Source: Clostridia bacterium
GTDB taxonomy: Bacteria; Bacillota; Clostridia; Oscillospirales; Acutalibacteraceae
NCBI GenBank assembly: GCA_017465825.1
Contig: JAFTVI010000036.1
Coordinates: 75,174-112,625, forward strand
DNA: 37,452 nt
Direction: 5' to 3'
Shown: piece after piece, positions 2,874-37,452 of the stretch
How the letters are laid out: every line of letters starts with the position of its first letter
Position numbering within the stretch: the first letter of the stretch is position 1
Notes under the pieces: model-generated
What the model was told of the DNA's origin: nothing
Seen by the model: only the letters and a program-made list of their open reading frames with translations
Databases searched by the model: none
Position numbers and translations under genes: made by a program

Positions 2874-3290
2874 ATGATTACATTACTTACCGGAACAAAA
2901 GGAAGCGGCAAAACAAAGAAGCTCTTAGCTCTTATTGATGATGCTTACAAGGCATCTCAGGGCCACGTTATCTGTGTTGAGCAGAAGGATGCTCTCAGAT
3001 ACGATGTAAAGCCCAGTGTAAGACTTGTTTCTGCAGACCATTATGCAGTAAGCGGCTTTGATGCATTCTACGGTTTGCTTGCAGGACTTTGCGCAGGTGA
3101 TCACGATATTACAGATATTCTTGTTGATGCAACACTTCGTATAGGCTCAAGAGATTACGAGGAGCTTGCAGATTTCCTTACAAAGGTCAATGCTCTTTCT
3201 GCAGATGCAGACGTTAAGTTTACATTTACAGTTTCAACAGAAACAGAAAATATCCCTGAAAGAGTTCTCGCATTCTGTGAACTTAAGTGA
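2874..3290 (+). CDS. Small P-loop NTP-binding protein of unknown role
   Basis: A protein of 138 residues starting directly with a beta strand and a Walker A loop, GTKGSGKT (7-14). A strand at about 101-104 (DILVDATLRI) is in the right place for a Walker B but lacks the usual acidic pair. Together with its small size this suggests a compact or degenerate P-loop kinase/ATPase fold. There is no signal peptide or membrane segment, so it is probably cytoplasmic. AAAGGAG precedes the ATG at about 9 bases. It lies 30 bases after pgi with no terminator between, so the two are probably co-transcribed. I do not recognise a named family and assign no function. Confidence 0.75.
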   Translation: MITLLTGTKGSGKTKKLLALIDDAYKASQGHVICVEQKDALRYDVKPSVRLVSADHYAVSGFDAFYGLLAGLCAGDHDITDILVDATLRIGSRDYEELADFLTKVNALSADADVKFTFTVSTETENIPERVLAFCELK

Positions 3291-3341
3291 TTTAATTACT
3301 AAAAAATCCTGTTTTGCGGTAAAAAATTTCTCAAAAAGTTA

Positions 3342-3370
3342 TTGACAAAACCGTAAAATGAATATATAAT
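3342..3370 (+). promoter_or_regulatory. Perfect-consensus sigma-A promoter for yceD-rpmF
   Basis: TTGACA (3342-3347), 17 bases, TATAAT (3365-3370): every consensus position matches. Such strength fits a ribosomal protein operon. Confidence 0.88.
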
Positions 3371-3402
3371 ATACCCTGTTCGTATTTTGGAGGACTTTGC
3401 AA

Positions 3403-3882
3403 ATGAATATTGAACTTCGTCGCTTTTTTGAAGACGACGGCACACTTGATATTGACTATCAGTTTACAAGTGAGGATGAACTTTTTGCTTCTCCCGTTAC
3501 TGTAAAAGGTCGAATCAAAAGTGCCAACAGCATAGTAGCGTTAAACGCTGATGTTGAATGTTCAGTTTCCGTTCAGTGTGCAAAGTGTGCCAAGGATATA
3601 GTCAAAAAGCTCAGCGTACCAATGGAGCATCTGCTTGTTTCTCAGCTTAATGATGAAGATAATGACGATTTCATTTTAGTTGAGAATATGGTGCTTAATC
3701 TTGACGAACTTGTGCTTGAGGATGTTTATCTTTCTCTCCCTGCAAGGTTTTTGTGCAAGGATGCCTGTAAAGGCTTGTGTCCCTATTGCGGAACAGACCT
3801 AAACGAAGGTACCTGTAACTGCAAAAAGCCTGTTGACCCAAGGCTTGCGGCGTTACAACAGCTTTTGGACAGTAATGAATAA
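3403..3882 (+). CDS. yceD: YceD/DUF177 family protein, probable partner in 23S rRNA and L32 biogenesis
   Basis: A protein of 159 residues of the DUF177/YceD family, which almost always precedes rpmF, as here. Bacterial and chloroplast homologues are linked to 23S rRNA accumulation. Cysteines occur as CAKC (59-62) and as a C-terminal cluster Cys118, Cys122, Cys126, Cys129, Cys138 and Cys140, arranged like zinc ligands. The tail DPRLAALQQLL is typical of the family. An upstream in-frame TTG at 3397 lies only 3 bases from GGAGG, whereas this ATG is 9 bases away, so the ATG is chosen. A perfect promoter lies 33 bases upstream, and rpmF follows after 28 bases. Confidence 0.9.
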   Translation: MNIELRRFFEDDGTLDIDYQFTSEDELFASPVTVKGRIKSANSIVALNADVECSVSVQCAKCAKDIVKKLSVPMEHLLVSQLNDEDNDDFILVENMVLNLDELVLEDVYLSLPARFLCKDACKGLCPYCGTDLNEGTCNCKKPVDPRLAALQQLLDSNE

Positions 3883-3910
3883 GAGTGTAAATTATTAGGA
3901 GGTTTTTATA

Positions 3911-4189: not shown

Positions 4190-5512
4190 ATGGAAAAACC
4201 AATCGTTGCAATAGTCGGCAGACCGAATGTCGGTAAGTCCACGCTTTTCAATAAGCTCTGCGGTCAGCGACTTGCTATTGTTGATGATACTCCCGGTGTT
4301 ACAAGGGACAGGCTTTATGCGGACTGTGAATGGCTCGGAAAAAGCTTCCTGCTCGTTGATACAGGCGGTATTGAGCCTTATTCCGATGATATTATTCTGT
4401 CACAGATGAGGCGTCAGGCTCAGATTGCAATTGACAGCGCAGACGTTATAATTTTTGTTACAGATATAAAAACGGGTGTGGTTGCAACCGATGCTGAAGT
4501 TGCGACAATGCTTTTAAAAAGCGGCAAACCGATTGTTCTTTGTGTAAACAAGTGCGATTCTATAGGAGCTCCGCCCGTTGAGATCTACGAGTTCTATAAT
4601 CTCGGTCTTGGTGACCCGATAGGCGTTTCCGCGGCACACGGTCACGGTACAGGTGACCTTCTCGATGAGGTTTATAAATATATAGGTGAAACTGTAACAG
4701 AAGAGAATGAGGATGACTCTATCAAGGTTGCAATTATCGGCAAACCCAATGTAGGCAAATCATCTCTTGTTAACGCTATCTGCGGTGAGGAAAGAGTAAT
4801 CGTTTCAAATATTGCGGGCACAACCCGTGATGCAACCGATACTGCAGTTGAGAATCAATACGGTAAATTCCTGCTTATTGATACTGCAGGTCTGCGCAGA
4901 AAATCCAAAGTAGACGACACTATTGAAAAATACAGCGTTATGCGTGCTATTATGGCGGTTCAGAGGTCAAATGTGTGCGTTATTATGATTGATGCTACAG
5001 AAGGCTTTACCGAGCAGGATTCCAAAATAGCCGGCATTGCCCACGAAGAGGGTAAAGGCTGTATTATTGTTGTAAATAAATGGGATGCTGTTGAAAAAGA
5101 CGGTAAGACAATGGATGCATACCGCAAAAAGCTGATGAATGATTTTTCATTTATGTCCTACGCTCCCATTATATTCATTTCTGCAAAAACAGGTCTCAGA
5201 ATCAATAAGCTGTTTGAGCTTATCAATGCTGTTGATGCGCAGAATGCTATGCGTATCAGAACCGGCAGACTTAATGAAATTCTTGCGGATGCCCAGACAA
5301 GAGTTCAGCCGCCTACAGATAAGGGTAAGCGACTTAAGATTTATTATATGACACAGCCTTCTACAAGACCGCCCACATTTGTGTGCTTTGTCAATAACAA
5401 AGAGTTGTTCCATTACAGCTATCAGCGTTATATTGATAACCGAATCCGTGAGGTTTTCGGTCTTGAAGGTACACCTACACGCTACATCATCCGTGAGCGC
5501 GGCGAAAAATAA
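4190..5512 (+). CDS. der: Ribosome biogenesis GTPase Der (EngA)
   Basis: Double-GTPase required for assembly of the 50S subunit. The first G domain has GRPNVGKS (10-17), DTPGVTRD, DTGG and NKCD (120-123). The second has GKPNVGKS (184-191), AGTTRDATD, DTAG and NKWD (296-299). A KH-like domain follows from about 350 (KRLKIYYMTQPSTRPPTFV). The length of 440 residues is normal. AGAAAGGAG lies 10 bases before the ATG. It sits alone between the rpmF terminator and a bidirectional terminator shared with the converging hydrolase gene. Confidence 0.98.
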   Translation: MEKPIVAIVGRPNVGKSTLFNKLCGQRLAIVDDTPGVTRDRLYADCEWLGKSFLLVDTGGIEPYSDDIILSQMRRQAQIAIDSADVIIFVTDIKTGVVATDAEVATMLLKSGKPIVLCVNKCDSIGAPPVEIYEFYNLGLGDPIGVSAAHGHGTGDLLDEVYKYIGETVTEENEDDSIKVAIIGKPNVGKSSLVNAICGEERVIVSNIAGTTRDATDTAVENQYGKFLLIDTAGLRRKSKVDDTIEKYSVMRAIMAVQRSNVCVIMIDATEGFTEQDSKIAGIAHEEGKGCIIVVNKWDAVEKDGKTMDAYRKKLMNDFSFMSYAPIIFISAKTGLRINKLFELINAVDAQNAMRIRTGRLNEILADAQTRVQPPTDKGKRLKIYYMTQPSTRPPTFVCFVNNKELFHYSYQRYIDNRIREVFGLEGTPTRYIIRERGEK

Positions 5513-36713: not shown

Positions 36714-37211
36714 TTATATCATCCTTTCTGCAAACTCTTCAATTTCATCAAGCATAGCGTTGATATCGTTTATGTAATTTTTCAGTTCTTCGTCAGATGA
36801 AAACAACCTTGCAATTTTTCTTATTTGACGAATAAAAGCGTAATTAATTTTGACGTTTTCGTACAGCAAGGGACAACTGCCTATACCTCGTATATCTGCC
36901 CTTACGTCAAATCCGTTTTCGGTAATGACGGGGAAATATGGATAGATTCGGCAGGCGAGTGGTCTTGTTTTTCTGTCGCAAGTGTCGTTGCAGACTACCA
37001 TTTTATATCCGAAGTTCCCCTCGCAGTCAAGGATTTTGAAATTCTCAACATTTTTTATGATTTCTTCTTCATAAGGGAACAAAAACATCCCCGTTTCACT
37101 GTCGCCTTTACAGCATCTGCCGCCGCAAAGTCTTCCGCAGTCGGATACAAGGGGAGTTGTGCGTCCGAGCAGTCCGTATGCTCTTTTTATAAAATAGGAT
37201 TTGCCGTTCAT
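36714..37211 (-). CDS. YkgJ-family cysteine-cluster protein
   Basis: A protein of 165 residues with nine Cys: 25, 29, 33, 34, 63, 74, 78, 87 and 113. CGRLCGGRCCKGD and RPLACRIYPYFP are the hallmarks of the YkgJ/UPF0153 group, proposed to bind zinc or iron. The last 45 residues are a charged helix. Longer in-frame starts at 37298 and 37238 are rejected: a -10 box at 37232-37227 would place the RNA start near 37220, and GGTG lies just before this ATG. The biochemical role is unknown; coupling with a PHP phosphoesterase is the only functional hint. Confidence 0.85.
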   Translation of the reverse strand: MNGKSYFIKRAYGLLGRTTPLVSDCGRLCGGRCCKGDSETGMFLFPYEEEIIKNVENFKILDCEGNFGYKMVVCNDTCDRKTRPLACRIYPYFPVITENGFDVRADIRGIGSCPLLYENVKINYAFIRQIRKIARLFSSDEELKNYINDINAMLDEIEEFAERMI

Positions 37212-37226
37212 TTTATCACCGGATAC

Positions 37227-37255
37227 ATTATATATCATATTTTTATTTAGCGCAA
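37227..37255 (-). promoter_or_regulatory. Promoter for the YkgJ-PHP pair
   Basis: On the minus strand TTGCGC (37255-37250), 17 bases, TATAAT (37232-37227). The -10 is perfect, the -35 keeps only TTG. It fixes the start of the YkgJ gene at 37211. Confidence 0.55.
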
Positions 37256-37328
37256 GATTTTTATAATTTGTGCAACATAAATAAAAATCCGGCTGCATAT
37301 TTGTGTGGCATAAAATGTCAAAATAATA

Positions 37329-37358
37329 TTGACAAATTGCAGTTCTGTATTGTATAAT
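37329..37358 (+). promoter_or_regulatory. Sigma-A promoter for the gene at the right edge
   Basis: TTGACA (37329-37334), 18 bases, TATAAT (37353-37358), both perfect. About 48 bases separate it from the start codon at 37406. Confidence 0.8.
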
Positions 37359-37405
37359 TTATACATAAAAATATGTTAATTTTTTAACGGAAGAGGGTTG
37401 CAAAG

Positions 37406-37452
37406 TTGGGCAGAATGTCATATAATCTTCTGACAGACAGACAGACAGACAG
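37406..37452 (+). CDS. 5' end of an unidentified gene with a tetranucleotide repeat (cut by window edge)
   Basis: The frame TTG-GGC-AGA-ATG reads MGRMSYNLLTDRQTD and stays open to the edge. GAGGG (37393-37397) lies 8 bases before the TTG; the ATG at 37415 is in the same frame but 17 bases away. A perfect promoter lies upstream. From the tenth codon the coding sequence is GACA repeats, which encode a T-D-R-Q cycle in all three frames. Too little remains to name a product. It could also be untranslated leader, if the true start lies beyond the window. Confidence 0.5.
   Translation, partial: MGRMSYNLLTDRQTD
37432..37452 (+). repeat. GACA tetranucleotide tandem repeat, at least 5.25 copies, running off the window
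   Basis: Five perfect GACA units plus one base, uninterrupted to the last base of the window. The full copy number is unknown. It lies 26 bases into the predicted reading frame. Confidence 0.95.

Follow-up and report, generated by a model that had tools for sequence, protein, structure and literature searches.

At the right end of the analysed contig, an array of GACA units lies in a short leader frame that likely belongs to a GACA variant of a phase-variable transcription attenuator, in which the downstream gene is probably on or off at random, depending on repeat length. According to this reading, the leader would be translated, the translating ribosome would drive antitermination, and the number of units could change within a strain. 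The anatomy of the element, its recurrence in other genomes and the differences in unit number between its loci are observed directly. The window (the whole stretch of 37,452 nucleotides that was analysed) comprises C29:75174-112625 of a Clostridia bacterium assembly, and its right edge coincides with the true end of contig C29.

Leader, array and contig end

The features of the leader are collected in Table 1. A sequence-only reading had described a promoter, a ribosome binding site and a start codon leading into an uninterrupted GACA repeat, and all of these are present in the sequence where it placed them. No other GACA array is present in the list of tandem repeats of the window. The TTG start lies 8 nt past the Shine-Dalgarno (SD)-like run, and the ATG is in the same frame. 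The upstream promoter is the one whose transcript would include the leader start, while a transcript from the internal promoter-like pair, a feature absent from the sequence-only reading, would begin within or close to the array, without the leader start.

Table 1. Features of the element in the window and of the genes behind its copies on contigs C9 and C16
Feature	Position	Strand	Basis or remark
Upstream promoter TTGACA-18-TATAAT	37329..37358 (TTGACA 37329-37334, TATAAT 37353-37358)	+	sequence
Leader SD-like run GGAAGAGGG	37389..37397	+	sequence; SD-like runs at the equivalent place in other loci
Internal promoter-like pair TTGCAA-17-TATAAT	37398..37426 (TTGCAA 37398-37403, TATAAT 37421-37426)	+	sequence and relatives
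Leader frame MGRMSYNLLTDRQTD..., start TTG 37406-37408 or ATG 37415-37417	37406..37452	+	cut by contig end
GACA array, 5.25 units, 100% match	37432..37452	+	tandem-repeat list; cut by contig end
Dispersed block	37262..37452	+	recurs at C13 end and C16 start (from 37310); C9 starts in its array
Divergent neighbour gene, 194 aa, no Pfam match	36714..37298	-	synteny anchor; outside the switch itself
Secreted-protein gene on C9	C9:156-1904 (L022)		frame behind array
Secreted-protein gene on C16	C16:270-1784 (L023)		frame behind array

Four GACA units in a row occur at four places in the 2.2-Mb assembly: at the start of C9, which begins inside the array, at the end of C13, at C16:123 and at the end of C29. 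The visible units number four in C16, at least four in C13, at least five in C29 and at least six in C9. The end of C13 matches the window block from about 37262 (96% over 187 nt) and the start of C16 matches it from 37310 (99% over 139 nt). Two further three-unit matches in C28 lie, in our judgement, within coding sequence and were rejected as relatives. The earlier reading had attributed the contig break to a longer array. The contig does stop inside the array, but since C29 breaks at both a repeat and a sequence with at least three near-identical dispersed copies, the break alone is no proof of a long array, and the dispersed copies explain it at least as well.

Downstream side and reading frames

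The rear of the element can be read in C9 and C16, where the order is the same: the array end GACAG-GATAACT, a hairpin with a T run, a ribosome binding site and the ATG of a secreted-looking protein (583 aa in C9, 505 aa in C16). The hairpin comprises 18 consecutive pairs in both (-28.5 kcal/mol in C9 and -28.4 kcal/mol in C16). A Pfam search with the two proteins returned no family. They have a common signal peptide and C-terminal ~60 residues while the middle differs, a pattern of modular surface proteins, each preceded by a copy of one leader.

The gene order of the genus connects the window to one of these copies. The last gene of the window (Table 1) is present in 11/11 genomes of the genus. 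We compared its flanks in eight genomes, leaving out G006 and G007; a leu operon lies beyond the gene in six of the eight (G004, G001, G009, G002, G005 and G008), with two extra genes in between in G001 and one in G002, and is absent there in the other two (G003 and G010). On C9, the operon that follows the surface-protein gene has a T-box leader at its front and then leuA-leuC-leuD-leuB-ilvB (genes named by eye); the T-box match at 2164-2422 of L022 is part of this operon and not of the element. Because of this synteny across the genus, we joined the end of C29 to C9, and this join places the element and a surface-protein gene between the window's last gene and the leu operon. The intrinsic terminator between leader and gene can be seen directly in C9 and C16, and for the window follows only from the C29-C9 synteny. 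Elsewhere, L038 has a sub-threshold match to the Gut-1 RNA at 4716-4793 (36.5 bits, against a gathering score of 50).

We combined the window's leader start with the rear of C9 and followed the frame for each number of units (n). When n mod 3 is 1, the frame meets a stop 6 nt past the array; when it is 2, the stop lies at +29, 17 nt ahead of the hairpin; and when it is 0, the frame ends at +73, inside the hairpin, which spans about +46 to +98 after the array. The C16 copy (n = 4) stands in the early-stop frame. The sequence-only reading had taken the array for the 5' end of the switched gene and proposed translating the downstream frame for each unit number. Run on C9 and C16, this check finds no frame that stays open into the gene: all three stop before the gene's own ribosome binding site and ATG, which lie behind the hairpin. 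An in-gene frame at the window locus is hence rejected.

This arrangement suggests how the element might work. A transcript from the upstream promoter would carry a short leader frame (SD, TTG or ATG) that enters the GACA array. As GACA units contain no stop in any frame, their number would only determine in which of the three frames the ribosome comes out of the array. In the OFF state, the exit frame would meet a TAA at once (in ATAACT), so that the ribosome drops off ~40 nt ahead of the terminator and the hairpin forms. In the ON state, one or both of the other frames would carry the ribosome up to or into the hairpin and block its formation. The window/C9 locus would then be ON at n mod 3 = 0, OFF at 1 and in between at 2, and gain or loss of GACA units by slipped-strand mispairing would flip the state.

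Recurrence, conservation and unit numbers

To see how far the element recurs, we scanned one genome per species for the pattern GACAGACAGACAG-N0-4-ATAACT, which gave 55 loci. An array, ATAACT and a hairpin (score of at least 16) are found together in 43 of these, with 3 to 24 units. We judged L105, L106, L116, L147 and L159 to be unrelated and rejected them as members; also set apart were L135 (in HsdS), L127, L133 and L148 (fused to a gene), and L119, L134 and L143 (weak hairpin or too little sequence). In 16/55 loci the array sits within 100 nt of an end of the available stretch. The carriers are mostly gut Clostridia, including the cultured Ruminococcus bicirculans 80/3 and Ruminococcus sp. 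FC2018; host labels further name Oscillospiraceae, Lachnospiraceae, Erysipelotrichaceae, Nitrospirae and others, although such labels are weak evidence for bins. The order of the parts also matches in G003 and G001, of the same genus as our genome, and in G026, of another genus. The element is sporadic, occurring in 2/300 genomes of the family (our own included) and in 5/29 genomes of the genus of R. bicirculans. A class-wide search of 391 genomes matched only our own genome, using a pattern that misses arrays ending in GATAACT or GAATAACT, and an exact 21-mer scan of genome contigs gave no match.

Three of the Nitrospirae-bin loci (L132, L146 and L150) keep the SD, ATG, array and TAACT without the internal promoter, and behind the array of L132 and L146 lies what reads by eye as a helix-turn-helix-like regulator (MRIG.RIKNLR). 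A viral scan (50 stretches) yielded, in our judgement, one resemblance to the element, L101 (an IMG/VR contig). Here a three-unit leader relative (minus strand, ~2450) is flanked by two surface-protein genes of Gram-positive type, of which the first has an LPKTG motif, an arrangement reminiscent of pil1 (see below). Longer arrays of several GACA units in L056 (1-85, minus strand) and L091 (also IMG/VR) look, in our judgement, in-gene, lying in apparent viral coding frames; that of L056 comes shortly past a start.

We compared the parts of the element with shuffled controls, using hand-written lists thinned for near-duplicates (33 loci for the start codon, 33 for the promoters, where the window replaces C16, and 42 for the hairpin). 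The upstream promoter is found with at most 4 mismatches in 32/33 loci (shuffled 0.88), with a mean of 1.50 mismatches vs 3.68. The internal promoter, just ahead of the array, reaches the same level in 27/33 loci (shuffled 0.30), with a mean of 1.95 vs 4.87. By a simple rule for start codons, an ATG at -26 to -17 is open into the array in 22/33 loci, compared to a mean of 5.3 and a maximum of 11 in 200 shuffled sets; with a wider reach, an ATG or GTG open into the array is found in 40/42 loci of a list that keeps near-duplicates, and none is within reach in L112 and L123.

A stop within 9 nt past the array occurs in 32/33 loci, but this is largely forced by the search pattern. We therefore relisted the arrays of 31 genomes without requiring ATAACT, which gave 44 places, of which 43 were read. 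ATAACT follows the array in 32/43, a count that is only partly unbiased because these genomes came from ATAACT hits. Of the remaining 11, eight keep, in our judgement, a TAA within 9 nt (L190, L208, L209, L215, L216, L224, L227 and L229) and three have no such TAA (L213, L221 and L228).

Using a simple scoring scheme of our own, a hairpin with a score of at least 25 is present in 34/42 loci (shuffled fraction 0.00) and lacking in the other 8; it starts at a median of 42.5 nt past the array. In 33/34 loci the hairpin is within reach of one frame or more, the exception being L139 (28.8 expected, P 0.012). This enrichment is modest because short spacers are often open by chance. An earlier, looser count gave 43/46 against 36.7 expected; it left out G001 (the same as L130), six non-members including L135, the loci fused to a gene (three), two with weak hairpins (L119 and L134) and one with none (L143). 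The predicted states for 42 loci, near-duplicates kept, are 16 ON, 20 OFF and one in between, with three lacking a strong hairpin and two lacking a start.

Unit numbers differ between otherwise similar loci, all of them comparisons between different genomes or bins, or between copies, rather than within one culture. One BREX locus is found with 3, 17 and 14 units (L109, L113 and L107), for which the predicted states are ON, OFF and OFF. L109 and L113 are 96% identical upstream, where L107 is cut, and all three are 98-99% identical downstream. L149 and L156 have 9 vs 11 units at 86-89% flank identity, two copies within one bin (L139 and L154) have 18 vs 6, and L120 and L121 have 11 vs 12 at 95% upstream identity, with different genes behind. 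L117 and L142, on the other hand, have equal numbers (13) at 93-95% flank identity, which counts against hypervariability. The slippage switch proposed by the sequence-only reading is supported in so far as the start lies just ahead of the array and n is 3, 14 or 17 between flanks that are 96-99% identical; its gene-fusion form does not hold.

The gene behind the array often encodes a surface protein, in some loci a pilin, and sometimes a BREX or Ssp protein of phage defence. By a crude rule, a signal-peptide- or transmembrane-like start is found in 31/53 first genes (55 loci tried; the count contains near-duplicates and some frames unlikely to be genes), vs 10/33 frames of the window and 29/90 frames in 19 loci, the latter including the first genes themselves. 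Among 10 picked proteins, Pfam found a type IV pilin methylation motif, camelysin with Big_2, BspA-type LRR, a SpaA pilin domain, VWA and List_Bact repeats, as well as protein kinases (L108 and L134), Band 7 (L112) and FkbH (L103). In L109, PADLOC identified BrxA, BrxB, BrxC and PglX consecutively behind the array; the first proteins of L107 and L113 are near-identical to that of L109. In L156, the second gene behind the array has a weak match to BrxP and the third one a match to SspB.

A few arrays do lie within genes. L127, L133 and L148 come from one Erysipelotrichaceae bin (RUG14047) with several GACA arrays, and in two of these loci, L127 and L148, frame A stays open for 3.1 kb beyond the array; VWA domains occur in the protein of L148. 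In L135 (Lachnoclostridium An131), 19 GACA units separate the two Methylase_S domains of HsdS (around 2963-3902, minus strand), where the unit number may change HsdS spacing or truncate this type I restriction specificity protein.

Alternative readings, known systems and meaning

In the contingency genes of Haemophilus and Neisseria (lgtC, lic, mod), tetranucleotide slippage acts on an array within the gene itself. The present element is like these in having a tetranucleotide next to a start codon, with GACA itself in one case. If it were such a gene, the array would lie in the 5' coding region and frame shifts would abolish the switched protein directly. The start codon running straight into a non-triplet array fits this explanation, as do the in-gene forms of L127, L148 and L135, but we consider it unlikely for the window: the array there lies in a separate leader frame ahead of a terminator, every frame in C9 and C16 stops short of the gene, whose own ribosome binding site and ATG follow a hairpin and its T run, and synteny makes C9 the continuation of C29. 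The constant order of the signals across 33 loci, thinned for near-duplicates, and the leaning of the first genes towards surface proteins make it very improbable that we are dealing with a dispersed, assembly-breaking sequence whose array has no regulatory role, even though at least three near-identical copies exist in this assembly, two at contig ends, one contig start falls inside an array, and the 16/55 arrays close to an end of their stretch would suit such a sequence.

The leader RNA might instead act through its structure or a bound protein (riboswitch-like, or with a GACA-binding antiterminator), the leader frame being incidental. In single folds the array is enclosed by a stem, a pyrimidine stretch past ATAACT in many loci (CCCTTTTT) could in our judgement pair with the SD, and the internal promoter would yield an RNA starting in the array. 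We nevertheless hold this to be quite improbable. The Rfam 15 covariance models have no match at the element, the range of 3 to 24 units speaks against a fixed fold, and the SD, the ATG and the stop that follows the array are all retained. Pairing between 5' and 3' partners of the same locus is also not clearly stronger than with foreign partners (means of -11.20 vs -10.52 kcal/mol when permuted, with 346/5000 permutations as good), and SD/anti-SD pairing as a conserved stem, seen in single folds, was rejected on this permutation test.

One point against the attenuator model is that the internal promoter is strongly conserved, yet the model makes no use of it. This promoter might act as a brake or pause site, or give rise to a short RNA. 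In a bolder version, which we regard as possible but doubtful, both promoters, the GACA leader, the TAA and the terminator would form a portable cassette that has spread among distant bacteria, making the operon downstream (surface, pilin, BREX/Ssp) stochastic; here, just as tentatively, the internal promoter would add a layer of its own through a constant short RNA, a paused polymerase or a brake.

In amino-acid leader attenuators such as that of the E. coli trp operon, the leading ribosome decides terminator formation, as set by charged tRNA. A ribosome in the GACA leader would likewise decide the fate of the terminator, but the leader shows no obvious run of sensing codons, and repeat number rather than charged tRNA would be decisive.

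The closest known principle is found in Streptococcus gallolyticus, where the pil1 and pil3 loci have an experimentally shown phase-variable leader-peptide attenuator (Danne et al., 2014; PMC3894217). At pil1, GCAGA repeats in the leader frame place the stop either 28 nt or more ahead of the hairpin (expression mixed but largely low) or at or in the hairpin (high expression); chloramphenicol lowers the high state, start-codon and ribosome-binding-site mutants are low, and deletion of the terminator locks expression high (Danne et al., 2014). As in the pil1 leader described there, a promoter lies upstream of the GACA element, a stop-free, non-triplet repeat lies in a leader frame with ribosome binding site and ATG, an intrinsic terminator lies downstream, one frame stops early while others end at or inside the hairpin, and surface genes lie behind. 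Unlike pil1, the unit is GACA rather than GCAGA, and the C9 gene has no Pfam match that would mark it as a pilus gene. Most GACA loci also have a TAA directly behind the array and an internal promoter, whereas no second promoter is reported for pil1. The GACA element furthermore occurs across several bacterial groups, also before BREX/Ssp genes. We take the likeness to suggest a common working principle only, and claim no common descent.

In our searches of the open-access literature, no title or abstract dealt with GACA leaders in Clostridia, although a passing mention in full texts is possible, and the papers found with GCAGA repeats and a leader peptide were both on S. gallolyticus. To our knowledge, phase variation of the attenuation type has been described experimentally only in S. 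gallolyticus.

The element could explain the breaks of short-read bins ahead of surface genes. If the attenuator reading is true, ON and OFF states would be predictable from the unit count, so that reads spanning the array could test the reading in uncultured bacteria too. The element would then represent a device that recurs among gut Clostridia, including cultured strains, and is recognisable from sequence, and a BREX operon could sit under a stochastic leader switch.
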